From Darksidea phi (lineage: Eukaryota > Ascomycota > Dothideomycetes > Pleosporales > Lentitheciaceae): a stretch of 64,000 nucleotides of DNA. Made by a program: the position numbers and the translations under genes. The notes under the pieces were generated by a model. That model had not been told where the DNA came from and did no database searches. It worked only from the letters and a program-made list of their open reading frames with translations. Shown here piece by piece: positions 1 through 60,256 of the stretch. The DNA lies in contig JASJFT010000151.1 in the NCBI GenBank assembly GCA_030770425.1, forward strand, positions 1-64,000, given 5' to 3'. Position 1 is the first letter of the stretch; each line of letters opens with the position of its first letter.

Positions 1-61
1 TAATTTTTTTTTTTATTAAATTTAAAAAAAAAAAAAAAAAATTTTTTTTTTTTTTAAAAAA

Positions 62-110
<49 letters not shown>
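1..110. repeat. A/T homopolymer low-complexity edge
   Basis: The first 110 bases are almost entirely long runs of A and T. This looks like low-complexity sequence at the edge of an AT-rich island, or an assembly/contig edge. No coding signal is visible. Confidence 0.8.
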
Positions 111-113
<3 letters not shown>

Positions 114-386
114 AGGTACGCCGGCTTAAGGTTAAAAAACTAAAGGGCTATCTAGGTATAATAGCTATATATCTATTTAATATTAAGCTACTTACTATAC
201 TAGATTAGATAGATAAGAGAATAATTAGTATATAATAAAAAAAATTATAAAGGCTTTATAAACGTCTATTATTATTTAAATAATAGTAAAAGCTTAATTT
301 AGTAAATAAGACCTTTCTTAGATACTCTATCCTTAAGTACTTTAATAACTAAAAAGGTAAGATTATATATACGTTTAAACTAATAT

Positions 387-1564
387 TTAATTTAGATTTA
401 TATAGTAGGAGTCTCTTTAGAAGGTTTATATAAAATATAGTAGGAGTTTATATATAGTAGAGGTACTATACCTATACCTTATATATAATAATAGAGCTAT
501 AGAGTTATATATAGTATTATCGATTATAAGTAACGAGGTAATATTTCGAATATTAAGACGCTAGACGAGAAATAATATATAATACCAAACTATAGAGCCT
601 AGTTAGGAGACTAATAATAATAGTAAGAAGTTAGTATACTAATACTACTACCTACTATCTATAGTATAAAAATTACCCGCGATAATACTAGTATCCTACT
701 TACTATATCTATCTCTTATCCTTAGCTAGCTTCCTTATATCTATCTCTTATTCTTAGCTAGCTTTCTTATCTCTTCCTTAAACTTATTATTAATACCTAC
801 TAACTAGATATCTTTACCAACGATCGTTCGCCTAGTCCTTTAGTAGGAGGTATTAGAGTATAATAGCCTATTCGAGTATAGTACTCTAAACGTTTCGAAT
901 ATTACGGCGGAGTATCCCCGGCGCTATAGGAGGGAGATACTATTAATAGAGCTCCTCGATTATAATAACTATTAGTATAAAACTAACTATATATTAGATA
1001 TATTCGAGGAAATAAGCGATAATAGGATTCTCGTATAGCTATTAGTAGTTATCTATATTATATTCCTATCCAAGGCCCTATATAACGAGAATAGGTATTT
1101 CGTCTAAAGGTAGCTATACCGTCTACGTAGGCTAGAGGAAAAGCTTATATAGGGAAGACTATTAAGAAAGGAGGAATCGGCCTTCTTAAGAGGCTATCGA
1201 GGGAGCGAATACCTAACGTAGAAGATAGAGCTAGTATCTATAGTAGATATAATACGAATAATAGCGTAGGGGATTAAATACGGAGGAACCGGTAGGGATA
1301 AGTAGAATAGAGGACGATAGGGATACCTAGCTAGAAAGGCTTACTATCGTTATTAGTAGGGGATTCGGTATTATTAGCGCGTTTAACTATCTATATATAT
1401 TATTAGTAAATTAGGAGCTATTATTATCCTATAGTTACTACCTATTACGTAAGATATCGAAATATTAAAATATAATAAGATAATTAGAATTATAAAAAAT
1501 ATAGCTAGCCTAGAAGCTAACGTAACGTTATACTAGGTAGTAGCCTAAGCTCCTAGAGGAGGAG
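387..1564. mobile_element. RIP-mutated 1.2-kb insertion in host repeat
   Basis: Compared with the uninterrupted copy at 5.5-6.1 kb, this segment is extra. The 14-base string GTTTAAACTAATAT occurs immediately before it (373-386) and at its end (1565-1578), consistent with a target duplication or recombination junction. Its left end is the LTR-like dispersed repeat described at 391-688. The remainder has RIP-broken reading frames that I could not identify; it is possibly a truncated LTR retroelement. Confidence 0.55.
391..688 (+). repeat. LTR-like dispersed repeat, RIP-mutated copy A
   Basis: This copy aligns almost base for base with 60558-60820 (same strand) and with the reverse complement of 31251-31408, except that nearly every CA/TG in those copies is TA here. 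For example, TAGAGGTGCTATACCCACAC in copy B reads TAGAGGTACTATACCTATAC here. The element begins near AGATTT(G/A)CA(T/C)AGTGGGAGTCTC. Confidence 0.85.
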
Positions 1565-1982
1565 GTTTAAACTAATATATATAAACTATTAAATATTATA
1601 GTTACTAGTAAAAAGTTACTAGTAGGCGAATTATATATTATAAATATAATATATTACGTATACGTATAAGAAAAAAATAAAAATTAATATATATTTATTA
1701 TTACTATTAGCTATTAGCTAGGTATTCTTAAGTAGAGATAGTAAAGAAAAAAGAAAGAAAAAAATAATAAAGAAAAGAAAAAAAAGCTACTATAAGTTAA
1801 TAATTAAGAATTAATAATTATTCTTACTAAGTAACCTAGAGCTATAATAAATTATTAGTTAAGTTAATAATAATAAGTTATTATAAATTAGGTTATTAGC
1901 TTTTATTTAATTAAGTATTAAAATAAGCTCTAGTAGTTTTTAACCTTATACTAGAGATAGATAGTTTTTAATCTTATATTAA

Positions 1983-3853
1983 TATATCTTATAGACGAGC
2001 GCTATATATAGGTAAGTACTATACCTCTACTAAGACTCTACTAAAATTATAATAATTTTATAGTAAAATACTCTAAAATATAATAGATTATAGTAAATTA
2101 TAGTAATTTATTATAAATTATACTATTTTATATTACTTTTATATATTCGCGTATTATATCTAGCATTATTATATCTTTTATAATACTTTTAAATAGGCTT
2201 ATTTTTATTAATATATACCCTCTTCTTATCCTTCTTCTTATTATTTTAAGTATTAAATTTTTTTAAAGTAGTTAACTAAGCTTTCTTCTTAAATATTAAG
2301 GTATTCTTCTTTTAAATTTACTTTCTTTTATATAATTTACGTCGCGTAGCGGCTTTATTAGCTACTTAAAGCTTAGTAACCTAGTTATATAAAAGTACCG
2401 CTAAATATACTATTAACTTAGTACCTTTAGTAAGCTATATAAGTAACTTAACTATTAAAATAAAAAAGCTATTCTAGTAATTCTAAATCCTTATCTTAAT
2501 TAGCGTTAATTAGGACTAGAATTTAATAAAGTTACTTAGTATTTTTAACTTCTAAAAAGTATTTTTAATAATAGGGGGTATTAGCGTATATAATTAAACT
2601 TTAAGCTTTAATAATATTATCTTTAAGTTAAAGAAAACTAGGCTAGTACTTTAAAAATTAGCCTAAATATTACTTTTTATAAAGATACTAAAAAAAGCTA
2701 CTTTAAAGTATAATAAGAACTTAATTTTTATAATATAAGTAATTTAATTATATATTAAATCCTTAACTTAACACTTATATATCTTCTTTAAAGATAAAAA
2801 ATAGCCTATATCTAGTAGCTATAGTAGATACGATAAATAAGGTAGTATATAAAGAGTAATTATTTTCTTCTTCTTATAAAATATTTAAAATTATAGTAAG
2901 TTATAACTATTATAGCCGTTTAGAATTAATAATTAATATATACTAGTAATACTACCCTTTATATACTTATTAAAGTACTCTAGCTACTTAATACTAGCTT
3001 CTTTATTTATTTAGCCTTTTTTAGTAAGTTAAATAACCTAGTTAGAAGGTATTTTATTTTTCTTATACTAGACTAAGAGATAATACTTATCTAGAAAGAT
3101 AATAAAAAATAAAATTACTTATTTTATTATATTAATACCCTAGATAACTATAATCTACTTCTAATTATCTAGCTAGAGTCTTTTTAGTTATTCTTAATAC
3201 TTAAAGCTAGTAACTACCACTCTAGTTAATATTACGCCTATTATAAAGCTAGATTTATTAAAGTTATATATATCTTTATTAGTAATACTATACTTAGCCT
3301 TTATATTTATTATAAGTTAAAATTAGCTCTTAATAATCTTTAAATCCTTATAGAGAGCTCTCTTATAGTTATACTTTTAATTAAACTTAATCTATAGCTC
3401 TAGGGTACGTTTTATAAAGATTATAGTCTAATTAATATTTATAAGCTTTTAGCCTTACTTAATAAGTAAAAAATTTATTATATTTTTTATAATAATAAGT
3501 TAGGGGGAAAATCCTTATTTATTTAAATTAAATATATATCTAATAATTACCCCCTCTTCTTTCTTTATAAGAGCTATTAAATTTAGGGTAGAATCGTATT
3601 ATAACGCGATTCTATTACGTCGCCTTTATAAGGTTTATTCGGGTATCTTATAAAGTATTATAGTACGTTATAAAGAGATTATCGCGTTTTATTTAATAGT
3701 CTAAAGAGTAAGCTATATATTAGCTTTAGTATAAGTATATTAATTATATTTTTATAAAGATATTATAAATTATAATAAAATTATTATAATTTTAGTAGGG
3801 TCTTAGTAGAGGTACGGCGCTCGTCTATATATAGTACTTACTTATAAGATATA
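1983..3853. mobile_element. RIP-mutated TIR element flanked by TTAA
   Basis: The sequence TTAATATATCTTATA at 1979-1993 is mirrored by TATAAGATATATTAA at about 3843-3857. Inner inverted matches follow: AGACGAGCG and TACCTCTACTAAGA(C)YCTACTAAAATTATAATAA occur on one side and in reverse complement on the other. The second host-repeat copy has only one TTAA at this point (about 6073-6078). A TTAA-flanked, about 1.87-kb element with terminal inverted repeats is the simplest reading. Internal coding is destroyed, so the superfamily is uncertain. Confidence 0.5.
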
Positions 3854-5100
3854 TTAAAGGTAAATAGTTTATACTTATATCTAAAAGTTTAATTTTATAT
3901 CTTAAAATATTATTATTATATATAAGAATTATATAAAATTTAAATATATACTTTTATATACTTTAAAGATTTTATTTTTTTAAAATTATTAATTAATTTA
4001 TATCTTATAATTTATTTTTCTAAATAAAGAATTATATAAATTTATATATTTAAGTTTTAAAAGCTTTATTAAATAGATATAAAGTATATATATAGTTATA
4101 ATTCTTATATATAATTATTTTTTTATTATTATATTATATAAATTAAATTAAGCTTTAATATATTATTATCTTAAATATTTTCTTTATCCCTAGGATATAA
4201 ACCTTAATATTTCTACTATTAATATACTAGACTTTATATAATAGACTATAAAACTATTAAAATTTATTATAATAGTTTAGTACTATATTAATAAAATATT
4301 CGCTAATAGTTAGTAGAACTAATAGATAGTTTATACGTGTTATATATTTATTCTATATTATTATATATTTCTAATATTTCTAATATTTTTAACGGCTAGT
4401 TACTATATTATATATATCTAGTATACGTTTACTATAACTACTACGCTCTCTACGTCTACTATTACTAGTAAGTATAAAATATAAACCTATATATTAGTCC
4501 TAATTAGAAAGTTATATTATATTATTATAGAGCTAATTTTTTTCTTTAAAATAAACTAAAAATTATCTAATTAGGCCTAGTATTAGTAAAGTTATTAGAC
4601 TTTAAATCTTTAAGAAATAAATTATTCCTATTTAGGAAATATCCTTATACTTAAGAATATTTATTAAGATAGAATTTTAAAAAGGTTTCTACTAATATTA
4701 TAAACCCCCTTTTAAATTATTATTATCTAATAAGTAGTAGTTATTACGTCGTTAAACTTATAAAATAATCTAAAAAGATAATATAAAAAGATATTTTATT
4801 TTAAATATCTTAAAACGTAAGAAAGTTATTAGTTATAGTTATTATTAGGACCTAAGACCGTTAAGATATAATTATAAAAATAATAATCTAAGCCTTATAA
4901 AAGAGAGTATATTATATACTATAAGTAATAGCTAAAGCCTTAGAAAGGGTATAGCGCGTATTATAATATAATATTTTAAGCGTTATAAAGTAGATATAGC
5001 GCGTATTATAATATTAAGCGATAGTAATAGTAGTTTATTAGACTTAAGAGTAAAAAAATATAACCTACTATCTACTTAACGTCTTATATAATAAAGTATT

Positions 5101-5172
5101 ATACTTTATTCTTTATTCTTTATTCTTTATTCTTTATTCTTTATTCTTTATTCTTTATTCTTTATTCTTTAT
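5101..5172. repeat. 7-bp microsatellite (CTTTATT)n
   Basis: About ten perfect tandem copies of CTTTATT lie inside the RIP island. Confidence 0.95.
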
Positions 5173-5511
5173 AGTCTTATTAATTACTTTACTTATTTAT
5201 ATAGCTAGCTTATCTCTTTAATCTTTAATATTATTTATCTTTATTTTATAACTTTACTTTATAATCTTATTAATACCTATAGGGCTATTTTTAAAGCTAA
5301 TTTAAAACTTATTTATTATATTAATTTATAATTCTATAATAATTATATAACTAAAGGGTAGCGTTATTATAGGCGTATAGGTATATTATTATTTTTATCT
5401 TCTATTTATAAAGATAGCCTTTAAGTATACTAATAATAAGTCTAGTAATTTTAATTATCTTATTCTTACTAATTTTAAAAAGTAATATAATTAGATATAC
5501 TAGCTTAAGAT

Positions 5512-6110
5512 TAGAGAACTAAAGGGCTATTAAAGTATAATAGCTATATATCTATTTAATATTAAGCTACTTACTATATTAGGTTAAATAAATAGCGGGA
5601 TAATTATTAAATAATATAAAAAATTATAAAAACTTTATTAATACTTATTATTATTTAAATAATAGTAAGAGTTTACTTAAATAAATAAGATTTTTCTTAA
5701 GTATTCTACCCTTAAGCGCTTTAATAACTAAAAAGATAAGATTATATATATATTTAAACTAATATATATAAATAATTAAACGCTATCTAGTTATTAATAA
5801 AGAGTTATTAATAGATAGATTATATACTATAAGTATAATATATTATACGTATCTATTAAAAAGAAAAGAATAAAAATTAATATATACTTATTATTACTAT
5901 TAGCCATTAGCTAGGTATCCTTAAGTAGGGGTAGTAGAGAAAAAAAAAAAAAAAAAAAAAGTTAATAGTTAAAAATTAATAATTATTCTTACTAAGTAAC
6001 CTAGAGCTATAATAAGTTATTAACTTTTATCTTATTAAGTACTAGAATAAACTCTAGTAGTTTTTAATCTTATATTAAAGATAAATAGTTTATACTTATA
6101 TCTAAAAGGC
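5512..6110. repeat. Host repeat, copy 2 (uninterrupted)
   Basis: This is the compact homologue of the 130-1980 segment, lacking both insertions present there. It provides the empty-site comparison used to define them. It is RIP-mutated like its partner. Confidence 0.7.
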
Positions 6111-6879
6111 TTAAATTATTATTATAATAGAAAAGCTTTCTAGATAAAAGTCTTAGATCTTAAAGATTTAAAATAATAAAATAATTTTTTCGTTATTATT
6201 CTAGCTAGCTAGGGGGCTAGCGAAATTTTTCTTAATATTAAAACTTTATATACTATATATAAAGATTTTTTAAGCTAAAAATATTAGTTTAATATCTATT
6301 AAATAGCTTTATTTTTAGCTTTAAACTTAATTTTTTTATATAAATTAAGTTTATTTATTAAATATAAATCTTTTTAATAAATATAAATCTTATTTCTAAA
6401 TATAGAATAAAACTAGGCCTAATATAGTCTAGTTTTATATAAAAATAATATTCTAATAGTTCTATTAGAACTAGTATTAGAAGAAAATATATTTATATTA
6501 CTATTAGAATTAATACCAGCTATACTAGTTATAGAATAATATTAGCGTCGTAGAATAACTATATAACGGGTATAGGTTAATATAGAACGCTTATAGAATC
6601 CCTACTATACTATATAATATTATACTACGTTTTTAATCATTTTTTTCGTAGCGAACATTTTGCCGATATAGTTATAAGAATTAGAGCTAAGTAAGATAGC
6701 TATTTTTAAAGCTTAATAACTAGTTTTATATAAGTTTAATATAGGTAATTTTTAATTTTATTTATAGCCCTATAATAAGGCTTTAAAATAATCTAACTTT
6801 TATTAAAATCAACCTAGTATTTATAAAGTTATTAAGCTTTTAATATTTCTTAATAAAAGTACGTAGCTTGCTTGTAAAG

Positions 6880-8181
6880 TACGTTAAGACTTTAAACTTT
6901 TATAATTATCTAGCCAGCCTCTATTTATTAGAGTAACTAGACGACGAATCATACGCCTAGATAGGTCTATACCTTCTCTAAGACTAACTATAACGACTTC
7001 TATTTGACTCTAAAGTAGATAAAAGGAGTATTTAACCCTTAGATAAAGGTACGAGCTAACGGTAAGCTATATATATTAATCTATAATAGGTTCGGCACGC
7101 ACGAAACCCTCGAAATACTAGAGTTCTACTTTAAAAAAAAGAAAAAAAATTATACTAATTGCTCTCTTATACCTCTTATAAGCTTTAACCCTACGACGTT
7201 ACGGTATTTAGGCTACTAAAGATAGTCTACCGCGACTAGATAGAAAGACTATATCGTAGTAGGGGAACTATAATCCTTAAGGAGCACTTTACCTCTTTGT
7301 ATAGCCCTACTAGGGAGACGGCCATAAGTAAGAAGAATATTCTTATAGGATGGGCTAAGGCTGGTCAGTTCCTGTTTAACCCAGACAGGGTACTCAGGAG
7401 TGTGGCGAAGCTAATTGCGCCGCTATCCGTCCGCAATGAAGGCACTGAACCGTGTCCATCGCATGGAGTACTTCGAACTCTAGTAACCCCGGTTTCGTCA
7501 GAAGCTCTCTCGTCCCTACTTACCCGAATCAGACAGGATCCTTATGATGAGCCAAGTAGACGGCGTCATTAGAAGCTCGTATAGAAGCTTGCCAATGTCG
7601 CCCCAGATGTCCCTTACCCGGCAGGCCCTCGACCCGGACCATATCGAGTTTCTATCGAACATGAACAACGAAGCCAAAACTCGACGAAAGACCAAGTTAG
7701 AATACTTGGCAAGGCTAAAGTGATGACCTATGAGGATATCGAGGCTGTACGAGCGAAGCGTGCTAAGCAGAAGGCTGCTACAGAAGCCAAAGGCAAGCAA
7801 AAAAGCGGTCGAAAACCGAAGCGCTCTGCGACAGCGTCGGATGAGACTTCAGAGGCAACAGAGCCAGCGGAGGCAGCAGAAGCCTCACCCGTAGCGGCAG
7901 CTGAAGGTACTGCGGATATGGACAAAGCTCTTACAAAGCGCAAGAGAGCGAGGCGGAGTCGGCGGAAGCCACAGCAAGGAGCGCGAAACGCAGTAAAAGT
8001 TGTGAGACTGCTACATTGGAGCCTGCGAGAGCTGCAGAAATGCAGACAATCGGAAGAGGCAATAGTGATTTGCCTGCTTAATTGCGATAACGAACGGGAC
8101 CTTAACCAACTAAATAGCCAGGCTACGGAGGAGAGGATCGCGCCAGCTTCTTATAGAGCCCCGGTGGCACGCACGTATTAG
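6880..8181 (+). pseudogene. Fot1/pogo-type DDE transposase remnant
   Basis: Conceptual translation shows the C-terminal half of a fungal Tc1/mariner (Fot1/pogo, DDE_1) transposase. In order it has a broken segment resembling the family's G-HETLEILEF region (near 7090-7130), YRDxIERLYR (about 7225-7255), ILKEHFTSLYSP and the typical NILxGWxxAGxFxFNPDRVLR block (7335-7395), then a YEDIEAxRAKRAKQKAATEAK basic tail (7727-7800). Upstream of about 7.29 kb the frame is shredded by RIP stops, whereas 7.3-8.2 kb has normal base composition but is frame-shifted near 7.57-7.72 kb. The transposase is non-functional. Confidence 0.8.
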
Positions 8182-8348
8182 CAGAGGCCAGGCGTTTTCG
8201 AAAACATGATTTGATGCACGGACCTATGCGCACCGAGATGATTTGGCCCCCGGTCCTTGCTAGCATTGCCCTTGGTTTCCTGTCACTACTACACCGCTAT
8301 CAGCGTTTGCTAACAACCTGCGCGTTCACAGAGCATGCGTATGCCGCG

Positions 8349-8588
8349 ATGCGCCTTTTAAAGCGCCTGCCGAGCAACACTTTCGAGCTGACGTCCTTCG
8401 ACGACGACCACCCGCCGCCATACGCCATCCTCTCGCATACCTGGACAGAAGGTCAAGAGGTCACGTACCATGAGCTGAATGCCGGTGCAGGCAGGTACAA
8501 GACGGGGTTCGACAAGCTTCACTTTTGTGGCGAACGAGCGGCGGCGGATAGCCTACAGTACTTCTGGGTTGATACCTGCTGCATCTAG
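8349..8588 (+). pseudogene. HET-domain N-terminal fragment
   Basis: From the ATG at 8349 the frame encodes about 79 residues with the classic start of HET-E-like incompatibility proteins: MRLLK, YAILSHTW near residues 27-34, GFDKLHFC, and YFWVDTCCI before a TAG. Downstream DNA is AT-rich element sequence, so the rest of the HET domain (which should continue with DK-S--EL and WY motifs) is missing here. It is a truncated gene, cut by an insertion or by RIP. Confidence 0.75.
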
Positions 8589-9550
8589 GAATATCACCCT
8601 AACTAACAATTCCCTACAAAAGTAGGTGTACCTGCCGCCAGAATTAATAGGTCTTTTACCCTAATATAGGTCCGAGCGTAGCCGATGTTATAGGTATACT
8701 ACTAATAAAGTAGCTAGATTTATATAAATATTACTTATCTAACGTTTTTATATTCTCTTACTTTCTCTCTTTTTTTTTCTAGCCTAATATTTTTATCTTA
8801 TTCTACCTATACCTCTAAGTTAAGCCTATATAAATACTATATATCTATTAATTTATTTATACTTATACTTAGTAAGTATATTTTATTTTTTTTATTATTT
8901 ATCTTATTACTAACTTATCCTTAGTTCTATTTCCTAGAGTAATAAACTATTTATTAATCTAGTTACCTCTATTATATTATATAATTCCTTTATTATATTA
9001 AATATTTCGTAGTTATACCTAATATTCTTTAAATAATTAAGTTATATTTTTAATAATACCAAATATAATAGTCCTATAGAATATAATATAATTATATTAT
9101 TATTATATATAACTTATATTATAGTTATAGGTTATTTACTACCTCGTTATATCTTACTTCTTTAATAATATATATATACGCCGCGCTAGAATAAGATATA
9201 TTTATTTTTTTCTATTATTAATTATCTTTACCTAGCTTATTACGAGCCTCTTCGTACTAATAAAACTTATTATATTTATCTTTTTATATTTTTATTATAT
9301 CTTATAATTATAATCTTTCTTTAATTTAATTATAGAGTACTCTATATACGGTAGTATAACCCTTATACTAGATTATATCTTAGTAAAACTTATAAACTTT
9401 TCTAGCTTCGCCTATTCTAGTATTATTTACTAATCTATTTAGAGTTATATCTACTAATTAATAGATTAGTAATTTTTATATATAACTAGACTAAGTAATA
9501 GCTATTATATTTACTCTAATAATATATCTTTATAATTAGGGTTATCATCT
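8589..9550. repeat. RIP-mutated element DNA
   Basis: AT-rich sequence depleted of CA/TG, with no recognisable protein. It adjoins the C-terminal side of the DUF3435 remnant and probably belongs to the same element. Confidence 0.6.
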
Positions 9551-12050
9551 ACTACGTACTTTACTATCCTCTCTTCCTACTTAATATACCTTACTTTATC
9601 GCCCAAAATAATTTCTTTTAAAGAGAAGATAATACTATAGATATCTAATATATATCGCTATAAGTATATTTTATCCTTAAGATATATCTAGTAAAGATTA
9701 TAGCTAAGCTTATCCTCTTTCTTAATATACCGTAGATACTTTTTCTTAAAATATTTACTAAGATCCTCTAGACTATAGAACGGGTAGGTACGTTTATACG
9801 TAGGTAGACTTTCGTTATCTAGATAAAAGAAATATATTCTTAACCTCTTCTCTTTATAAACTACTATCTTAACTACTTCTAATACTTTTCTATTTAGATC
9901 TAGCTAAGTATCGTCTTTATTCTTACTAGGTAGCTTAGTATAATAGCTTAAGTATTATATCTAAGATAGGTATATTCTATCTTCCTCGAATATATAATAT
10001 CGTATAATAGTATAAATAGTCCTATTTTACTAGTTAAGCTTCTTAGCCTCTATAAGTCCTAGAGAAGCGAATATAATAGCTATTAACTTCTATTATTTTT
10101 AGAATAGTATATAAGGTACTACTTTAAGTTTATTCTCTATATTAGTACTAAGACTAGTAAGCTACCGCTTAATATTATATACTAGCTATTTATACTCCTA
10201 CTATTTCTAGACTTTCTAAAGAAGGATATACTAATATTACTACTTTTTCTAGTTAATTCTACTAGTAAGTACTTAGTACTTCGGATTTTTAATTACGTTA
10301 ATAAGAGTATATTTAAGATACTACCGTTGGTTAAGAAGGGAATAAATAGTTAGATTATTATTTACTAATATAGACTATTTTAGAGTAAGCCGCTATAGTC
10401 GATAATAATCGATTAAATAGTTTATAGTATAGACTATCTATATTAGTATTATCTAGGGCTAGATACCTTATATAATAGCCTATATATTAATCGTAATATA
10501 GTATAAAAGGTAGTACTTTAGAAACGTCGCTATACTTATATACTCTATTATTAGGTTTTATATAGTATTACTAATATTATCTATATATAACGTTACTACT
10601 ATATCTTATATCCTATACCTTATAAACGATAGCTTATAGTACTTACTATTCTTATTAAACGCCTTCCCTTCTATATATTTTAGAGAATAGGGACGAGTAA
10701 CTTATATAAACCTTATAATTTTCCTAAGATTTTAGATCTATAATAGTAAAGTAGAGTAGGAAAGAGACTTTATAGGTAAAATAACCTAGTTATATAAGGT
10801 CTATACTACTTTATAAAATAAAGGAATATTATCTAAGATCTAATTAAGTTATAAATATAGCTTATTATAATCTAATAGAATAGTAAGCTAATTTATCTCC
10901 TCTAAGAAGATTAGGTTATAGGCTATAAACGCTCTATTATAGAAGAGTATACCGAGGAGTATAATATATAGACTAAAGATAAGAGTCTCGTCGTAGATAA
11001 CTTTAAAGAGAGGAAAAGTATTCCTAATAAAAGAGTTAGTATTCTTATTTATTCTAGTAGATAAAAAGTATACCGACGTATATATCTTTAATACTAAGGA
11101 ACTCTTTTATAAACTTATAGGTAAACTTTAGTATTATTTAATAAGAACTACTCTCTAGATTCTATAGTAGAGTAACCTATATATACTAATAGTAGAGACT
11201 AAGAATAGTCTATAGCCGATTAACTATAAAATTACCTAGTTATAGATAAAGAAGGTCTTATATCTAATAATATCTATAGGAGTATATTATTAGAGTTATA
11301 GCTAGATTCGTTCGTAATATAAGAAACTAATCTTCGATATATATATAGGTCTTATCTCGATCTATCTTCGTAAGACTATATTTATTTACTAGTCTTCTTA
11401 GTATCTACTTTTTATATTAATAGTTATAGATATACGTATAATACTAGACCTAAAAGACTAGAACCTTTATATCCTATATATACTCTAATTTATCCTTATA
11501 TTTATCTTCTTACTAATAGCTCTTTTATATATTAGGTAGGAAATCTTCTAGTACGTTCTTAAGAAGCTAGCGTACTTAGTCCCTTAGTATCTTCTTCTTC
11601 TTTTTTTCTAGTACTAGCTTAGTAGCTAGTTAAAGAATATATAGAGAGTATTAATAGATATAATTAAGAAGTTACGGTACTCGTCTTTCTTAAAGTATAT
11701 TTAGTATCTATACTAAATTAGTTCTATATAGTTTAATATAGATAAGAAGAAAATAAAAGATCTACTTATACTACTAATCCTCTATATAATTAATTAAACG
11801 AGTAGTACTATTCTTATAGTCCTCTTTCGTATATTCTTATTTATTAAAGGTCTCTAGCTATTAGAGATAGTACTTAGATAGATAATCCTTATTAGAGAAG
11901 AGCTATACTTCGTTCTTATTCTTATCCTCGTCGTCTCTATAGATAAAGGTATTAATATCTATCGAATCCGTATCTAACTTTATACTATTATCTATATTAG
12001 AAGTAGACGTAGTATAATTACTCTTCTTAAAGGAACTTTTAACTAAAGAG
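9550..12050 (-). pseudogene. RIP-inactivated DUF3435 tyrosine recombinase
   Basis: Read on the minus strand through RIP stops, this is a DUF3435 protein. Near 11.87 kb it has an N-terminal SNKDYLSKYYL--LETFNK-EYTKEDY segment. At about 11.04-10.91 kb it has NTFPLFKVIYDETLIFS followed by LLGILFYNRAFIAYNL. At about 10.70-10.66 kb it has VTRPYSLKY-EGKAFN, and at about 10.53-10.50 kb ATFLKYYL, where the family has the nucleophile-tyrosine region. A C-terminal FYSLEDLSKYFKKKYLR segment lies near 9.8 kb. DUF3435 proteins are the tyrosine recombinases of Starship giant elements (captains) and relatives of Crypton elements. Dozens of in-frame TAA/TAG codons make it non-functional. The family call rests on remembered family motifs, not a search. 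Confidence 0.75.
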
Positions 12051-13130
12051 CGTCGTTATATATTACTATAGTCTATAATAAGGTAAAGCGTCTAGAAATA
12101 GAATATCTAAAGATAGAATATTTAAGGTAAAGCGTAGAGAGAAAGAGATACTAGGGAAGAATTCTAGCTTAAATAATAAATACTACTAAGACGTACGCCG
12201 TAAATAGAGAGAGAATAAAGAAAAAAGAGATAATAGTTCTTATTTTAGGGTATATAGACGATAAGAAAAGATTCTTAAGTAGCCTACCGGCCGTACGGCC
12301 TCTATTTCGGGTATAAGTAATAAGAATAAAAATAAGATAGGACTACTAGGGTTATAAGTACTACTATATTCCTCTTTATATAGAAAACTAGAACCGGGTC
12401 CTCGTTATAGGGTAATTATAAGGATACGCTAGTCGAGGTAGAAAATCCGAAGAGGTACGTATACTCTAGTCTAGGGTATACGACTAGAGGGGTTTTATAA
12501 TAAGTTAGCCTCTAGAAATAGTATTAGAAACTACTAGAATCGGCCTCCTAAAAGCTATTAGATTATTTAAGATAGTAAAATAATTATAGAAGTTATACTT
12601 AGTAAATAGCTCTTATATAAAGATAGTAAGTATCTATTAAATAGAAGTTACTAAAAATTATCTATAAGGGGAGTAGTAATACTATTACTACTAGTATAAG
12701 AACTAATAAGAATATATATAGACTATAAGCTATAATAATAATAGGTAAAAGTTATAAATATATATTAATAATAGATTAATATTTAAGTTATATATACTTT
12801 CTAATTAAACTAACTATATATTATAAAGTTAGGGTTAAGAGCTACGAGGCTAAAAAGACTATAAAAACCTCTTATTAAGATAGTAGAGTATAATATAGAT
12901 ACTAAATATCTAAAAAGTCTTTTCTATAAAATTATTTTTTCCTTAGAAATAGAGTTTTTTAAGAGTATAGATACTTAGGTAAACTTTTCTAAAGAAAGTA
13001 AGAAGACTAATAGAATATATTATAGTAAATAACTCTCTATAAGGGCTGAGACGGCCTTTAGGAAAGGGGGAGGCTATATTACGCCTACTTCTACTAGAGG
13101 ACTCCCGGATCATTATCGGCCCGGCCACGG
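12051..13130. repeat. RIP-mutated element DNA
   Basis: AT-rich, CA/TG-depleted DNA upstream of the DUF3435 remnant. Nothing is recognisable apart from broken frames. Confidence 0.6.
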
Positions 13131-13720
13131 TCACGTGCCGGACCCTATATAGTCCTACGTCCTACTATCACGTCTCCTTAAGGATTCGTCTCATCTCCAT
13201 CCGAATACAACCCTTTTGCTGCCTCAGCGTTTCTGTGCCTGCCTGCCTACACGTGCCTCACAAGAACTATTAACTATAGAGCTCTAGCGCGTACCGGTAG
13301 AGACGCGAATAATTAGAACAATAGTAGCGGAGAGGAGGACGTAGGGGGTATTTTTATCACTACCTCTATTACTATCTACCTTAGTATAGTACGACGAGTA
13401 TTCGAGGCCCGCGAGGCTATTATAATAGCCCTATTAAGGGCTATCGATATCTATATAAAAGGCTTTAATAGCTTAGAGGAGAGAGAGGTCGGGAACGACC
13501 CACGCTAGCGGATAATTGAGACCCTTACAACTACCTTAGGCCCCTTCTTAGACCCCTCCTTAGACTACTAATCGAGCGGCGACGATAGTATATATACCTA
13601 TAGGAGCTAGATAGAAATTACTATAACCTCTAAAAACTTAGGGGAAAGTAATAATGCTATAAATAGCTCTAGTAGCTTAAAGAGGTAGACAGTTAAATTT
13701 TTCTAGCATTCTCCTTCCTG
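13131..13720 (+). mobile_element. Unidentified RIP-altered element ORF with normal-GC leader
   Basis: A normal-composition leader of about 150 bp (13135-13265, with CCTATATAGTCC and a pyrimidine-rich tract) precedes RIP-altered sequence. On the plus strand that sequence still shows a long near-open frame (about 13385-13700) containing FEAREAIIIALLRAIDIYIKG and LGPFLDPSLDY broken by TAG codons. This resembles a retroelement leader plus gag-like ORF, but I do not recognise the protein. Confidence 0.4.
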
Positions 13721-14059
13721 CTATAGCTAGTAAGCAGTGCTGCTTTGCTTAGGCGCTTATCACCCTCGGCTCACCCACCCCTCAGTCACGTTGCCCTGCG
13801 CTCTCCTAACAGCCAATCGTACTCATTTATGAGTCGGACATAACCTCACGATTCTATCAAGTCTGGACGAGAGGGATACTTGTAGGCAGGTTTTGGGCTC
13901 TGGGGCGCATTTGGAAGGGGGGACAAAATTGTCCCCCAAGGACTAGGGACGAAATAGGCTCCCTTGCCATGCGACCCCCAGCATCCCACGAAACTAGCGC
14001 CATCTCTCCTTGGAAAGATGGCTTGTGCTATGCCTTTGCACTATAAAGGCACAGTCGTG

Positions 14060-53552: not shown

Positions 53553-54026
53553 TCAGCACTGCAACCCATTAGCGATCACTCGTCCATTCATCCAAGGATT
53601 TTGTTCTATGATCGAGAACGACTGGGGAAAACTAACATTCAGCACCGGCGACGGACATCCACCTTGTGCTCTTTGGTAACAAGCCATTTCCACGTAGTGC
53701 TTGAATTGGCATAGCTGGTCCTTAAGTTAACCAACCGTTCCCTCATTCCTCGGGGCTTATGCCCATCCCCTATCTCCCACGGCGCTTACCTCTTTGTCCG
53801 AGAACACACCAACTGGAATGACCGGTCTATCGCAGACGCATCCGGTCTTGAACGTCGGCGTCGGTTCTTTGTGCGGGTTCCTATGGCCAGTCCCCGTCCT
53901 TGTCCGGTTTCTGCTCTTCGTGGGGAGGGGGACAGGGGCGGATGTGCTGAGAGCGTCGACTTCAGCGGGGTATGGGGAGGCAGTGACCATGGCCGCAAGA
54001 GCGAAGACGACGAGTGCGAGACGCAT
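53553..54026 (-). CDS. Small secreted protein with six cysteines
   Basis: The ATG at 54026 begins a signal peptide, MRLALVVFALAAMVTASPYP. A Ser/Thr/Pro/Arg-rich linker follows, then TGCVCDRPVIPVGVFSDKE. A 75-bp intron (GTAAGC to ACCAG) joins to LCQFKHYVEMACYQRAQGGC. The model given uses a second intron (GTTAGT to TTGCAG, GCTAAT branch) leading to a two-codon exon, Cys-stop, for 106 aa with six cysteines (exons 54026-53790, 53714-53637, 53558-53553). Reading through that intron instead adds about 30 residues and also ends in Cys-stop. No known homologue; effector-like. Confidence 0.65.
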
Positions 54027-55265
54027 ATTGGGTATGATTTGGCTCGGGGTTGATTGAAGACTGGACGTATGCGTGGGAGCAATAGAAAATGGGACCTTGA
54101 AAAAGAAATGTCAAATATCAACAATCTCCTATCGACGGACGAGGATTCAAGAAACGTGAGTGAGAAACGCGGGCTCGAGATATTTGCGCCATACTGGGTA
54201 TGTATATCCTAACCGATTTCCGCATTTAACCCCCCATTCTAAACACCATATGTCTACCGACATCGATCCGGGCTTAAGGAAATCCAGGTGCGCGAAACCT
54301 AGAGAGCTTCTCGTAGTACAGCTGCGCGGCCTAATATCCATATACAAGTTCTCCATCTAAGATGCCGGTGTGCCGGGCTAGATGATATTGCCGGGTAAAC
54401 AGCCTCCTGCCCCGCATACCACCTCAGACCCCAATAGCCATCGAAGGCCGCCACACTTGGAAATAGCCTAATCGCATGTCTACGTGAATTGGGTGATCTT
54501 CGACTCCACTGGTGAAAATGTATCCGGCGTTTTCAAACAGCAGTCATCATACTGTCGCCCCAAACACATGTCACAGGACGACTAATGCTCTGGCTACTAC
54601 CGTCCATTACCTATAATACCATGTCCAATCAAGTAGAAGCCGATAATGGAAAGAATTATGGACGCCGATCACTCCTCTCAACCCCAAAGTCCCCATCATT
54701 TCCTACCTCAGCAAACGCAGCGACAACACCCCTGGCCAGCTCCACAACGCGTCATCGCGAACTCCCGGGACAGCCTCCCCAGAAACACACTGCAGCATGC
54801 CAAAAATAGCAGTGGTAATATCTGAGATGTCGGCACTAACCTGTTCTTCGGTTTCTATTCAATTTTTCGGAACCGATTCTCGGCAACAAGAAAACCCGAG
54901 TCGAAACAAGCAGATGTTTGCACGGATACCACGTGTATGGGTAGTGAGGCATATGAAACATCGGTGCAACCCCAAGAGCAAATGGTCAAACATGTGTGTG
55001 CACGCGATAGGAAAGAGAAGGCGGTTGCGAGAAGTGAGCAAGGATGCGATTTTACAGCGCCTGGAAATGCTTGCGGAGGACCACTTGAAACCAAGACCTA
55101 ATGGGCTTTGAACGTTGCAACCTAATGATTCAAAAATCAAAGAGTAGCCAAAGTGATAGATGAATACAACTTCGCTATCCGTTCGTCTCTCTGTCCTGTA
55201 CAGAACTCGGCTTTCGTGTGATATGTTCAAACTATCAAGAGCCCGCTATGACTAAGTATATAAAC
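54027..55265. other. Intergenic region
   Basis: About 1.2 kb with several short frames but none with coding character, a domain or supporting splice structure. Confidence 0.55.
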
Positions 55266-56219
55266 TCACACATCCTCATAAGGCATCGCATTGTCATTAG
55301 CCCACTGCTTGATCTTGTCAAAGTTCCTACACACGTGATGGCTTTCATAGTCCGGCCAGGGTCCATCCCTACCCTCGACATCGTGGAACGTGAACACATT
55401 CACGTCAGAAAGACACATTAGGTTCATTCGGAGGATTTCAATACAGTGGTCTAGAAAGCCATTAGCGTTGCACTCACGTGTGGAGGAGAGGATAGCGCGG
55501 GATGAACGTACCAAGATGTGCCCTCACTTTCTCCGGCTTGTCATTCGTATCCGACCACCACAATTTGGTGTAGTACTCTGGGTATGTCGACATGCGCAAC
55601 AGATTGAGGCAGTGTAGTTGATGGAACACTTCGAGACCAACACGATATCCCGTTTCGCCAGTTTTGGGGTCGGTGACCATGAGGGAGTCGACAGGCTTTC
55701 GAAGTTTGGGAAACTCCTCCATGGAGACCATCTGATCGGGCACTGGTTGATCGTTAGCTTGGCGAGGCAAGAAATTTAGGGTAGAGGAGCGTACGATACG
55801 CAATGTCCATCCAAGCATTCTCCACTTCGTCTGTGATCCCAACGTATTTCGATTCGTTGAGCGGGTTTGGCAATTTGAATTGGACGTGCTCATATTCTAC
55901 TACATGCATCGCAGGAGCTTCTCTTCGTCAGTAAAAAGCTCGTCGAGACCGCATAAGGATGCCGCTTACAGAATATTCCAAACTCGTCCATTAATTTGGC
56001 AGCAGAATGCGTTGACTTCGTCCGTTGCGAATACACGGTACAAACAAGTGTGAGGGCAGACATAATGAATACGAACAGATTAGCTAATAGCAAGTACATC
56101 ATTCCTTTCCTTTTCCTCGTCTCTGGGCTGCTATGTCCGTTGAGGAAAGACGTGTTCTCGTTGTCGCCCTGGAAATTTAAATCGTCATAGTCGACCTCGG
56201 ATTGTAATCGTTTCTCCAT
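55266..56219 (-). CDS. UstYa-family (DUF3328) oxidase
   Basis: Four exons (56219-55970, 55917-55795, 55742-55512, 55450-55266; introns 52, 52 and 61 bp) encode 262 aa. The plan is type II membrane: a 39-residue cytosolic N terminus, one TM helix (MMYLLLANLFVFIMSALTLV) and a lumenal domain beginning SPAMHVVEYEHVQF. The two family-defining motifs are intact: HQLHC at 165-169 and DHCIE at 202-206, the latter created by the last splice, followed by LRMNLMCLSDV. UstYa-type proteins oxidise and cyclise ribosomally made peptides (ustiloxin-type dikaritins) and act in other pathways. The gene is divergent from the repeat-peptide precursor, 1.09 kb between starts. Confidence 0.92.
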
Positions 56220-57313
56220 TGTGATGAAGGGTGCTGCTAGATTTGCGAGAAAATGAAGTAAGAGGGAAAGAAGAATATAAAAGCCGACCTGTGATGTTAG
56301 GGAAGCGAAAAGAGGTGCGCTCAACGCTGGAGATCTGAAATCGAAGGAAACGATGTCGAAGCAGAAATGGTGCCTGGCGGGAAAGCCTAGTCTTTCATGA
56401 TGCATGCCAGATTCGTTACCGCTCAAGTGGATGTCAACCTCCCGCATGCGTGTAACAAGGGTAAGAATGTTGGAGAATATCATCTGAGGCAAGAATACCC
56501 TAGTCAAGCATATTTGCGACAATATCCTTGTCGCGCATGACGCAGCTGGTTGGCTCGCGAACAGTTTTGGTTTCGCGATGTGCGCTAAGTGATGTCTTCC
56601 ACTCACTACCGTTTCATCTTGGCGATCTGACAAAAGAGCCGGAACATGACACTCTGGTGGCACGTTCTTTCCACGAAAAGCCCCAAAAGCTATCCGGGCC
56701 GGGTTTGAGTGTCCCGCTGTTTTAGTGCCGCAGCATCTTCGCTGCGCTGCTTAGACCCAATGAGCAGTGTCAATGACATATAAGCCTTGTTTCAGAACGG
56801 AGTATGATTTGAGGAACTCAGTCACGATGCTAGGTAGCCCAAATGACGAGATGGTGAGGCTAGACAGTAAACGGTTCTCTGGTGCGCAGCTCCGCTCACA
56901 CTTGCTCGGCAAGGTGCCGCCTTACCCATACAGTTGCCGATCCATTCGCCAGTGCCTAAACAAAAGACTGCTCGAAGCATTGTATGTTTCCTGACCCAGA
57001 TAAAACACCGTCGCTCTAGGCTGCCGAGAAACTGGACGTTTCTATATCCATTTCAGCGTTGGCATCAATGCCATGTCGTCTCAGGAGCCAAGGCGTCGCC
57101 TAATAGGGCAATCAGTATGGGGTTAGCTTCTCAATGAAAGCTCGAATATAAGGTGAGTAAACGTCCGACCATGTTATTCAAAAGGCGACTTCAAAAGGCG
57201 ACTATTGTTCTTATTCATTCACATACCAACTCCTTTTTCATACTGCCGGTCAGGTCCTTGCATTCAGTTTATCTCTATCATTTAATTATTCACTTAATAC
57301 GCGTGCCTTCATT
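56220..57313. promoter_or_regulatory. Shared divergent promoter region
   Basis: About 1.1 kb between the start codons of the UstYa-family gene and the repeat-peptide precursor. No other gene is visible. GGCGACTTCAAAAGGCGACT near 57183 is a short direct repeat (AAAAGGCGACT twice). Co-regulation from this region is an inference from the layout. Confidence 0.45.
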
Positions 57314-58049
57314 ATGAAGTTCGCAGGAGTTATCCTTCTAGCTCTTGGAGCGTCAGCATACGTGGTGAATTATCAGCCGAAGGGTGATGCAGTAGAAGCC
57401 CGTAATCCGGCAACGGTCAGTCCACTTCCAATTATCCCTCGAAGTAGCTAACGTCAACTAGGGAAGTGGTGCGGCCTTTGACAATCATGCCGTTAATATC
57501 GTAGCTAGGCACCGTGAGTTTTAGCCTTCTCACGAAGGAGTGAGACTTGCTAACACTCCAAAGACAAGGGCAAGGGCAAGGGCAAGGGCGGTGCTGGTGG
57601 TGCTGCCAAGGGCCTAGGAGCGTTGTTCGGAGCCAACAAGCGTGAGGCTCAGCTTGAGCCAGAAGCAGAGGTTGAGCAGATTGAGAGGCGTCATCGTAAG
57701 TTGACTGCGCCATCCACGACGGAAATAGTCTAACGACATACCAGATAAAGGAAAGGGCGGTGCTGGTAAAGGTCTCGGCGGCGCTGGTAAAGGTCTCGGT
57801 GCCTTATTCGGAAACAACAAGCGAGAAGTGGAGCCTGAGGTTGAGAATATTGAGCGCCGACATCATAAGGGTAAAGGTGGGGGTAAAGGTGGAAAAGGTC
57901 TTGGAGCTCTATTCGGAGCGAATAAGAGAGAAATTGAGCCCGAGTTTGAAGGCATTGAACGCCGTCACCACAAGGGCAAGGGCGGCAAGGGCAAGGGTGG
58001 TGGAGGCGGCGCGGGCAAGGGCCTTGCTGCCCTATTTGGTGCGAACTAG
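57314..58049 (+). CDS. Secreted Kex2-type repeat peptide precursor (candidate RiPP precursor)
   Basis: Four exons (57314-57415, 57462-57513, 57564-57695, 57745-58049; introns 46, 50 and 49 bp) encode 196 aa. A signal peptide (MKFAGVILLALGASAYVV) is followed by four tandem units. Each has HHKGKG-type Lys/Gly-rich sequence, the block KGLGALFG(A/N)N (residues 67-76, 111-120, 146-155; KGLAALFGAN at 187-196), a KR pair (77-78, 121-122, 156-157), an acidic spacer (for example EVEPEVENIE) and an RR pair before the next HH. Two dibasic sites per unit are typical Kex2 cleavage sites. Introns 2 and 3 fall at the same codon of the unit (the His after RR). The layout beside a UstYa-family gene suggests a dikaritin-like RiPP precursor. 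A precursor of linear cationic peptides is the main alternative. Confidence 0.85.
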
Positions 58050-58175
58050 CCCGAGACTCAGATCGAAGCTTGTGCGGCTGAAGATCAACATGAAGAAATC
58101 CAGCGTCGTCATCACAAGGGCAAAGACGGAGCCAGTGGTGCGAGCAAGGACTTGGGGGCTTTTTTCGGGAACTGA
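58050..58175 (+). pseudogene. Decayed fifth precursor unit downstream of stop
   Basis: In the same frame past the TAG at 58047-58049, the sequence encodes an acidic spacer, IQRRHHKGKDG, then SKDLGAFFGN and TGA (58173-58175). It is clearly homologous to the upstream units. Where the other units have AAC-AAG-CG (Asn-Lys-Arg), this junction reads AAC-TAG-CCC, so both the Lys codon and the dibasic site are lost. Confidence 0.8.
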
Positions 58176-58831: not shown

Positions 58832-60256
58832 TTACCTCAGAGGATAGAATAAGCTGGTTCTGGAGCGCTTACAGGGTATCGCAAGACTGAAGCCGAAGCC
58901 GATGGGTGGCGGCGGCGGAGGAGGAGGAAATGGAAGAGGAGGTGGAGGAGGAGGTGGAAGAGGAAATGGAAGAGGAAGTGGAAGCGGTGGAGGAGGTGGT
59001 GGGTTGGTCCGCCACTCAACCTCCACATCGCAAACTGCGACTCGACCCAATAAATCCTTCAACGGACCATATATTCCTTCCTCGATTGTCGAAGCTCCGA
59101 AGCTAAACCGCCACCAACTAAGCACCATTCTAATCGACTTTAACCCTCTCATGTCGTCTAATAGCCGACAAGCCACATCCCATGTCGTCGCTTTATCGTC
59201 TAATTCGTGCTTGGGGAGTTTTCTGTAGTATTTAATACTTGTACCATGGGCAAGAGGTGTGTAGTCCATTGGACAATTAATCGAATCAGCCCTTATATAA
59301 CGGCATAGTGACTTCTTGTCATTGAAAAGACAATACTGGTTTACTTCGGAGAAGTGGATTATATCGACCGGTGATAAGTCCTGGAACCCAAAATAGACAT
59401 GTTGGATGTTGTCGAACCGCTGTGGAAGTAGGGATGCTGAGAATGCAATGAATGAGTATACGTCGCAGAAAGAGAACCGAAAGTTCCGATAGACCAGGCC
59501 AATGACTTCGGAGTATCTGGAGCATTCAGCATTGCGTTCGGAGAGTACGGGCTTGGATCGTGGCAGTTGGTCGGCTTACATGACTCTGCAAGTTTGAAGC
59601 AAAGGGAGGATGTCAAGGCTACTTCTTCTTGGCCGCTGTATCATAGACATATCACTTACGTCTCCTGAACTGACTGTTGAGCCCCCATAAGCAACGGATT
59701 CCTTGTCTTCTTCATCCTTGACACGGAACGAAGTCAGCCTCCCTTTCTTCAATATCACATACGTATCCCCTCTTCCAAGATACTCTTCCCAGATCAAAAG
59801 TCTTAGTTCAGCCGGTAAGCTCATCAGTCGCGAAATGTCTTGCTGTGCCGTCTTCTTGCTCCTAGTCCCAAATCGTGGCTTCTCCAAAGGCAAACTCAGC
59901 GCTCTCTTGCGCTGCGTCACTCTAGGCGGCTTCATGCTTGCCTTGTCAAGTCTTCTTTGGTTCCATTCGCTCCGTCGATATGAGGCCCAATGATAAAGGC
60001 CCCACGGAAAGATCACCGCTAGCATATATCTCTTAATACTCCGACCTCGACGCCATCTGGGCATCGATGACTCGGTGTTATAACTGTACGAGGAAAAGGA
60101 ATCGTTCTCGCTGTCGGAATTGTTCTCGCTGTCGGAATTGTTCTCGCTGTCGGAATTGTTCTCGCTGTCGGAATTGTTCTCGCTGTCGGAATTAGTCCTC
60201 CGAAAGAGGCCCAGCCGATGCAAGAGACGCAATCTGCGGGTGGGTAGGCGTGCCAT
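58832..60256 (-). CDS. DUF7730/F-box-like protein with SDSENN repeats and poly-Pro segment
   Basis: Two exons (60256-59580, 59516-58832; 63-bp intron) encode 453 aa. The N terminus has five tandem SDSENN hexapeptides (residues 22-51), then a basic region with a possible TM helix (YMLAVIFPWGLYHWASYRR). The fungal LPAELRLLIWEEYLGRGDTY motif comes next, and the conserved LLQTCRVIYSEVIGLVYRN block is restored exactly across the intron. The rest is typical of the DUF7730 group. The C terminus carries a Pro/Leu/Phe-rich run (about residues 385-420). Function unknown. Confidence 0.8.
60103..60192 (-). repeat. 18-bp coding tandem repeat, 5 units
   Basis: Five perfect units of GTTCTCGCTGTCGGAATT (plus strand) encode the SDSENN hexapeptide array. 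Such perfect in-frame repeats are prone to copy-number change. Confidence 0.95.

Follow-up and report, generated by a model that had tools for sequence, protein, structure and literature searches.

A UstYa-family gene head-to-head with a tyrosine-free di-histidine repeat precursor in Darksidea phi

Closest described systems and the gene pair

Dikaritins (ustiloxin, phomopsin and asperipin-2a) combine a secreted Kex2-repeat precursor with a UstYa-family (DUF3328) oxidase, and a UstYa/DUF3328 protein with two HxxHC motifs is one criterion for their recognition; per Ding et al. (2015) a dikaritin cluster contains several DUF3328 genes, a tyrosinase and a methyltransferase, with later clusters lacking some of these (PMC12048977). 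A survey of Kex2-processed repeat proteins (KEPs; Umemura 2020) counted 7878 KEPs in 1461 strains, 22% of them with a DUF3328 gene within 15 genes, and the position of such genes peaked at the gene directly adjoining the KEP (PMC7329392). Seven of its 23 abundant KEP types have DUF3328 genes; four of these hold Tyr, and types G-3 (#6) and G-8 (#15) hold a di-histidine, with a DUF3328 gene within 15 genes for 57/64 and 45/49 members respectively (PMC7329392). Here we describe a UstYa gene lying head-to-head with a gene for a Tyr-free di-histidine repeat precursor in Darksidea phi (assembly GCA_030770425.1, contig JASJFT010000151.1). The window, meaning the whole 64,000-nucleotide stretch analysed, covers positions 1–64000 of this contig, which is contig C59 in the searched genome of 51.35 Mb in 477 contigs. 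We give about an even chance to the interpretation that the locus makes a Tyr-free Kex2-repeat peptide modified at some site by the neighbouring dicopper UstYa protein. Gene structures, motifs, repeat constraint, the head-to-head order and the vertical-looking tree of the enzyme are read directly from the sequence.

The UstYa gene was joined from four exons (56219–55970, 55917–55795, 55742–55512 and 55450–55266) into a frame for 262 residues that match the PF11807 (UstYa) profile over nearly all of its length (210 bits, 3.9e-62); by eye, the N-terminus forms a hydrophobic helix. The splice sites of both genes were chosen by eye for frame and conserved motifs and are sequence-inferred. Its two HxxHC motifs are HQLHC (residue 165) and HLDHC (residues 200–204). 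The preliminary description had named HQLHC and DHCIE; the former stands, whereas DHCIE is part of HLDHC and was seen in its place because an intron splits the codons of the second motif. The DUF3328 protein CctR has a binuclear copper site built from HxxHC(x)nHxxHC, and replacing the His and Cys residues of this motif by alanine abolished its activity (PMC12435403). Since both motifs are as in CctR, the window gene appears intact and probably encodes an active copper enzyme. With CctR, ApnU and AprY it shares the HxxHC(x)nHxxHC arrangement, the N-terminal hydrophobic helix and more conserved cysteines, but the substrate of CctR is the cyclic peptide cyclochlorotine, and 14 of 43 named orthologues of the window protein lack one or both motifs (PMC12435403 for CctR, ApnU and AprY). 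No solved structure similar in sequence to the window protein was found at E 1.

The precursor gene (exons 57314–57415, 57462–57513, 57564–57695 and 57745–58049; introns of 46, 50 and 49 bp) begins with MKFAGVILLALGASA, which by eye looks like an endoplasmic reticulum (ER) signal peptide, and ends with TAG at 58047–58049. It encodes four units of 21–27 residues, each consisting of HHKGKG, a linker of 5–11 Gly/Lys/Ala-rich residues (including Leu in unit 2) and KGLxALFGxN. The head occurs in 4/4 coded units and the tail reads KGL(G/A)ALFG(A/N)N in 4/4, with Phe in each, which confirms in the 196-residue product the four repeats proposed earlier; both members of the proposed head-to-head pair of UstYa and Kex2-type repeat precursor are likewise present as joined frames. 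The proposed bounding of the repeats by KR and RR holds at the inner boundaries, with RR in front of units 2–4 and KR behind units 1–3, but unit 1 has a single R in front and unit 4 runs into the stop codon without KR. Acidic spacers of 10–14 residues lie between KR and RR, and the net charges are +5 to +7 for the units (terminal KR counted where present) and −3 to −4 for the spacers (RR included). Tyr and Trp are absent from every unit, the tail Phe being the only aromatic residue of the units; spacer 3 holds another Phe. The HHK codons are interrupted by introns 2 and 3. The four units agree with the KEP definition of at least three tandem repeats of at least 8 residues between KR, KK, RK or RR.

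Compared with ustiloxin, phomopsin and asperipin-2a, the locus has the same combination of a Kex2-repeat secreted precursor and a UstYa-family oxidase with two HxxHC motifs, but its units are Tyr-free and longer, there is a single UstYa gene, the neighbours are of housekeeping type and no tyrosinase or methyltransferase was found in the 26 open reading frames (ORFs) scanned. The earlier label 'dikaritin-like' captures the pairing of a two-motif UstYa protein with a Kex2-repeat precursor, but is too specific for a locus with Tyr-free units and no tailoring gene in those ORFs. Victorin likewise comes from a multi-copy precursor with Phe in its repeat, but the window Phe lies within the tail, away from the Kex2 boundary, and is not invariant, and no peptidase gene was seen in the ORFs scanned. 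The locus resembles the di-histidine KEP/DUF3328 types more closely than it does ustiloxin, phomopsin or victorin: G-8 and G-3 share with the window the signal peptide, putative in the window, the dibasic-bounded HH repeats and the DUF3328 gene within 15 genes, here the next gene at 1,094 bp, although the survey describes HH or W as 'accompanied by P' (which may refer to W only) and the window HH is not beside P (PMC7329392). The 49 members of G-8 come from 18 genera, including Pyrenophora, Bipolaris, Paraphaeosphaeria, Ascochyta and Periconia (PMC7329392). Because of the HH motif, the DUF3328 neighbour and the shared genera, G-8 is, by its description, the likely home of the window pair. Ten of the 18 G-8 genera we take to belong to the Pleosporales, and seven of these ten (Pyrenophora, Paraphaeosphaeria, Bipolaris, Exserohilum, Ascochyta, Pyrenochaeta and Periconia) are among the named UstYa relatives listed. 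A text search of the literature gave no match for HHKGKG, and the accessible portions of the open-access literature searched contained no product or chemistry for di-histidine precursors near DUF3328 genes (further papers: PMC12186524, PMC10206099, PMC8146201, PMC7099791 and PMC6339444).

Table 1. Coordinates of the gene pair and of the repeat units in the window
Feature	Position	Strand	Description
UstYa/DUF3328 gene	55266..56219	-	Joined open frame, PF11807 match, motifs
Intergenic stretch	56220..57313	.	1,094 bp separating both start codons
Precursor gene	57314..58049	+	196 aa, signal peptide (by eye), leader end VAR
Unit 1	57510..57637	+	HHKGKGKGKGGAGGAAKGLGALFGAN, across intron 2; KR at 57638-57643
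Unit 2	57692..57818	+	HHKGKGGAGKGLGGAGKGLGALFGNN, across intron 3; KR at 57819-57824
Unit 3	57861..57923	+	HHKGKGGGKGGKGLGALFGAN; KR at 57924-57929
Unit 4	57966..58046	+	HHKGKGGKGKGGGGGAGKGLAALFGAN; stop TAG directly behind
Fifth unit	58050..58175	+	In frame beyond stop; head RRHHKGK kept, tail KDLGAFFG

Constraint on the repeats and relatives of the precursor

Synonymous (pS) and non-synonymous (pN) differences between the repeats were counted without correction over stretches of 7 to 10 codons, the unit pairs not being independent. Compared between the four units, KGLxALFGxN gave a pS of 0.86 and a pN of 0.08, and RHHKGKG, the most constant element of the precursor, a pS of 1.08 and a pN of 0.02; the three spacers, compared over seven codons, gave 0.71 and 0.21 respectively. 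As synonymous sites are near saturation while pN is low, these counts indicate that both head and tail are kept by selection on the peptide, with the spacers less constrained. Behind the stop codon, the fifth unit keeps the head RHHKGK unchanged at the protein level (pN 0.02), whereas its tail shows drift: over eight codons pN is 0.17, compared with 0.03 between the four coded units. We set aside a decayed precursor gene, the four coded units being constrained and the drift confined to the tail of the post-stop unit, and an ascomycete alpha pheromone, which would show MF_alpha domains or a repeated STE13 XA/XP signature: no Pfam family was matched at E 0.1, and by eye XA follows KR in just a single spacer.

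Two precursor searches of 5.8 billion proteins, in which 8000 (the upper limit) and 530 candidates were scored, yielded four fragments as relatives. The leader of P0122 and P0123 closely resembles that of the window precursor, and P0001 and P0124 carry units. By eye, introns appear to be read through at the window positions, after VARH in P0001, P0122 and P0123 and before DKGKGG in P0001 and P0124. P0124 ends with KGLAALFGGN and a stop codon, as unit 4 does, and the stop at 58049 is for this reason probably native; the precursor end placed at 58175 by the preliminary description is the stop of the post-stop fifth unit, and that end was rejected in view of the in-frame stop at 58047–58049 and of P0124, which stops at the same residue. 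The single unit read in P0001 is KGLGALLGAN, with Leu in place of Phe, so Phe is not needed in every relative. The search of viral_contigs for relatives of the precursor fragments gave nothing useful, and no contig with relatives of both UstYa and the precursor was seen in a by-eye comparison, a weak negative because only the longest contig was compared and short exon pieces were not candidates.

Within the genome, one clear further relative is encoded on contig C1, a secreted paralogue of 251 residues in one intronless frame (L040 4822–5577). In it RHHKGKG occurs six times; the spacers are acidic, Asn and Ala are frequent in the tails, a single Arg marks the boundaries, and neither an aromatic residue beyond position 60 nor a KGLxALFGxN tail is present. 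The RHHKGK DNA pattern, which misses the two window units with an intron in this stretch, occurred at eight places in the genome, of which six lie in C1 and the other two in the window (reversed control 0), and a weak further precursor match was obtained on C179 (E 0.23). The head, shared by both copies, is thus the family trait, whereas the KGLxALFGxN tail is confined to the copy next to UstYa.

This paralogue bears on the possibility that the locus releases linear, unmodified cationic peptides with an antimicrobial or signalling role while the neighbouring UstYa protein acts on another substrate, which we regard as doubtful but worth serious consideration. It is favoured by the recurrence of HHKGKG heads with acidic spacers on a contig where a UstYa match is absent, by the charges of the pieces (cationic units, acidic spacers) and by the majority of KEPs, 6120 of 7878, that have no DUF3328 gene within 15 genes (PMC7329392). 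It is opposed by the direct head-to-head adjacency of UstYa and precursor, the restriction of the tail to the copy beside UstYa and the published DUF3328 association of HH-type KEPs (PMC7329392).

About 24 UstYa loci were counted in the genome from 31 matches spread over 22 contigs; contig C2 has three of them. A scan for repeat precursors covered 30 loci with about 1.5 kb on either side and found one, on C452; it missed a two-unit precursor on C2 and was thus not exhaustive. On C452 (L031) a UstYa gene on the minus strand, extending to ~1860, is head-to-head with a precursor starting at 2717, whose units (LNSRFAKYEAEKR) contain both Tyr and Phe; this second head-to-head pair lends weight to the pairing seen in the window. 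Contig C2 has three UstYa genes (C2:25978, 31393 and 33289) that flank a 92-residue secreted precursor with two Tyr-containing units (L041 8372–8647), and methyltransferase-, transporter- and P450-like frames (by eye) lie near it, as in a dikaritin-like locus. The genome therefore also holds Tyr-type loci, from which the window pair differs.

The preliminary description had placed a core in or near GLGALF and noted Phe there instead of the Tyr common in dikaritins; a dikaritin- or victorin-like ribosomally synthesized and post-translationally modified peptide, in which this short core is excised and cyclized via Phe, we consider unlikely. Phe is found in 4/4 coded units, the genome has UstYa loci with Tyr-containing precursors (C2 and C452), and victorin closes its ring between the side chain of a C-terminal Phe and an internal Leu (PMC9233826). 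The head HHKGKG is equally or more constrained, however, P0001 has GLGALL, and a protease boundary is found on neither side of GLGALF; the units measure 21–27 residues compared with 13 for ustiloxin, 14 for phomopsin and 8 for asperipin-2a (PMC7329392). A single UstYa gene, with tyrosinase, methyltransferase and peptidase all missing from the 26 ORFs scanned, is a further point against such a core.

Orthologues of the enzyme and their copper motifs

The protein search with the window UstYa gave 183 matches, of which the best 120 were used, with subsets chosen by name placed in trees. Among the matches listed, the closest relative was from Lentithecium (92% identical over 85% of the query), and named relatives were 56–81% identical for Pleosporales and 37–48% for fungi from elsewhere. 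The main tree comprised 47 rows (window, 43 named Pleosporales proteins and three outgroups), and a first tree of 46 rows (window and 45 chosen by name) agreed with it. The window and the 43 Pleosporales proteins formed one clade of 44 rows (support 100/100) with Lentithecium (fluviatile) as sister to the window protein (97/88); 25/44 inner branches were well supported and 11/44 open. Groups within the clade largely match what we take to be families, the genera round the window presumably being Massarineae. Other UstYa pieces of the same genome were 23–47% identical to the window protein over short stretches, and searches of viral_contigs and genome_contigs for UstYa relatives gave nothing useful. 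The window UstYa gene thus looks like a vertically inherited single gene in the Pleosporales, a pattern unlike that of toxin clusters, which usually spread patchily.

Motif columns were read from an alignment of 57 rows, the window protein not among them. The four Cys columns were kept in 57/57 rows each, and the four motif His columns in 55, 48, 50 and 50 of 57. Among the named Pleosporales orthologues, 28/43 have both HxxHC motifs, 2/43 one (Massariosphaeria and Clohesyomyces) and 12/43 neither, the losers being P0011, P0016–P0018, P0025, P0029, P0034, P0036, P0039, P0040, P0042, P0043, P0048 and P0057; the Cucurbitaria orthologue, marked partial, lacks the second motif and was left out of these 14. 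Both motifs were present in 11 of the 15 unnamed relatives, and in the other four the first was seen and the second unread, P0047 having an intron read through at the second-motif site. On the best tree the loss label required five changes, at least three of them forced by well-supported branches (Cucurbitaria counted). The copper site would thus have been lost more than once with the protein retained, unless the motif-less proteins are hidden paralogues.

These losses raise the possibility that UstYa in this lineage serves the precursor without dicopper catalysis, for example as a membrane-bound carrier or processing partner, and that the window protein merely preserves ancestral motifs, which we judge very unlikely. 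The repeated loss with the four Cys columns retained speaks for it; against it, both motifs are kept by 28/43 orthologues, the closest relative included, and the motif-less proteins could be hidden paralogues. The inactivity of the CctR alanine mutants, moreover, means that motif loss may stand for lost function (PMC12435403).

Neighbourhood and interpretation of the locus

The Pfam scan took in 26 window ORFs (batches of 6, 10 and 10), from which short or split exons could escape. It found ADP-ribosylglycohydrolase, RNase III/mL44-like, cyclase-associated protein, DUF7730, TPR, gamma-tubulin complex, EAF7, amino-acid permease, aminotransferase class V, kinase, HET and SDR domains, and no tyrosinase, methyltransferase, P450 or peptidase among the ORFs scanned, with the same caveat for short or split exons. 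A large biosynthetic cluster was set aside, the neighbours being ADP-ribosylglycohydrolase, RNase III/mL44-like, cyclase-associated protein, DUF7730 and TPR genes. The genome-wide UstYa search gave one match region in the window, in agreement with the single UstYa gene seen earlier. The gap between the two start codons could, judging by its position, hold a shared promoter. A small secreted Cys-containing protein (MRLALVVFALAAMVTASPYPAEV...) is encoded on the minus strand from 54026 leftward to ~53640, with a likely intron from ~53789, and the ORF 53760–54110 had no Pfam match. At 60098–60193 the start of the DUF7730 gene has five tandem 18-bp units encoding SDSENN repeats. Beyond the window, a long ABC transporter-like frame with two LSGGQ motifs (by eye) at C59 ~67.0–70.8 kb (L043 3044–6805), ~9 kb from the precursor, is probably a full ABC transporter. 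Positions 1–14000, perhaps mutated repeats, are AT-rich (17–37% G+C per 2 kb) and adjoin gene-rich sequence of ~50% G+C.

By our own arithmetic, ~0.007 chance UstYa/KEP neighbours are expected for 24 loci, 1.5 kb on each side, 51 Mb and the 5.25 KEPs per genome of the survey (PMC7329392). That the adjacency is accidental and the precursor an unprocessed structural Gly/Lys-rich secreted protein is highly improbable: the low-complexity Gly/Lys stretches and the sequence-inferred splice sites and signal peptide would allow it, but the dibasic sites at inner unit boundaries, the synonymous saturation with a conserved peptide and the unit layout shared by relatives all oppose it.

The UstYa protein and the precursor are thus plausibly enzyme and substrate. 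From these data we infer secretion, cleavage, the enzyme–substrate pairing and the kind and site of modification as follows. The signal peptide would take the precursor into the ER; Kex2 would cut after R or RR ahead of HHKGKG and after KR behind GAN/GNN, and a carboxypeptidase would then trim KR. The output would be four near-identical cationic peptides of 21–27 residues, HHKGKG-(Gly/Lys/Ala linker)-KGLxALFGxN, together with short acidic spacers. The membrane-anchored UstYa protein, its dicopper site luminal, would act on either the released peptide or the precursor and oxidize it, most likely at a residue conserved in the His-His head or in the Leu/Phe tail, Tyr not being involved. The tail may be the site, as it marks the copy beside UstYa and carries the only aromatic residue of the units; alternatively, the head may be, having the strongest constraint and the HH-type link, with Phe variable in P0001.

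Several observations weigh against modification by the neighbouring UstYa protein or against the G-8 placement. The four precursor relatives are unnamed fragments, and no named genome yielded one among the candidates scored; the genome-wide UstYa search gave no match on C1, which has the same-head paralogue. Tyr, missing from the window units, is the cross-linked residue in ustiloxins, phomopsins and asperipin-2a, and KEPs with and without DUF3328 are similar in HH content (5.7% and 3.9% respectively; PMC7329392). Alternaria, which has a UstYa orthologue, was surveyed and is listed for G-9, of which 48/48 are without DUF3328, and not for G-8 (PMC7329392). Paraphaeosphaeria and Periconia, among the genera shared with G-8, have motif-less orthologues. 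Finally, the sister group of the window and Lentithecium (Periconia, Byssothecium, Massarina, Bimuria, two Paraphaeosphaeria, Paraconiothyrium and Didymosphaeria) lacks both motifs in 8/8 rows, the first-motif site reading HQLQC or RQLQC, although both motifs are present in the window and Lentithecium proteins themselves. As 14/43 named orthologues, including this whole sister group, lack one or both motifs, dicopper catalysis is not uniform across the orthologues; the losses oppose a uniform dicopper oxidase role rather than the activity of the window protein itself.

Cutting at Arg would leave His-His at the N-terminus of 4/4 window units and, after single Arg, of 6/6 C1 units. N-terminal His-His can bind copper. 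It is conceivable, although we attach a low probability to it, that UstYa oxidizes or cross-links His, or that the peptides are secreted copper ligands working with it, the motif-less orthologues suggesting a lasting non-dicopper role. If so, the protein may keep a role beyond classical dicopper catalysis, with the His-His of the peptide perhaps as its partner.

Taken together, the comparison indicates that the pair fits a catalogued class as a new and well-delimited member. It offers a minimal case, with one enzyme, four near-identical units and an unpaired paralogue for comparison, and is of interest because the chemistry is testable and the enzyme family unexpectedly loses its copper site. 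It thus raises the questions of what UstYa does without Tyr, and of what its orthologues do without a copper site.

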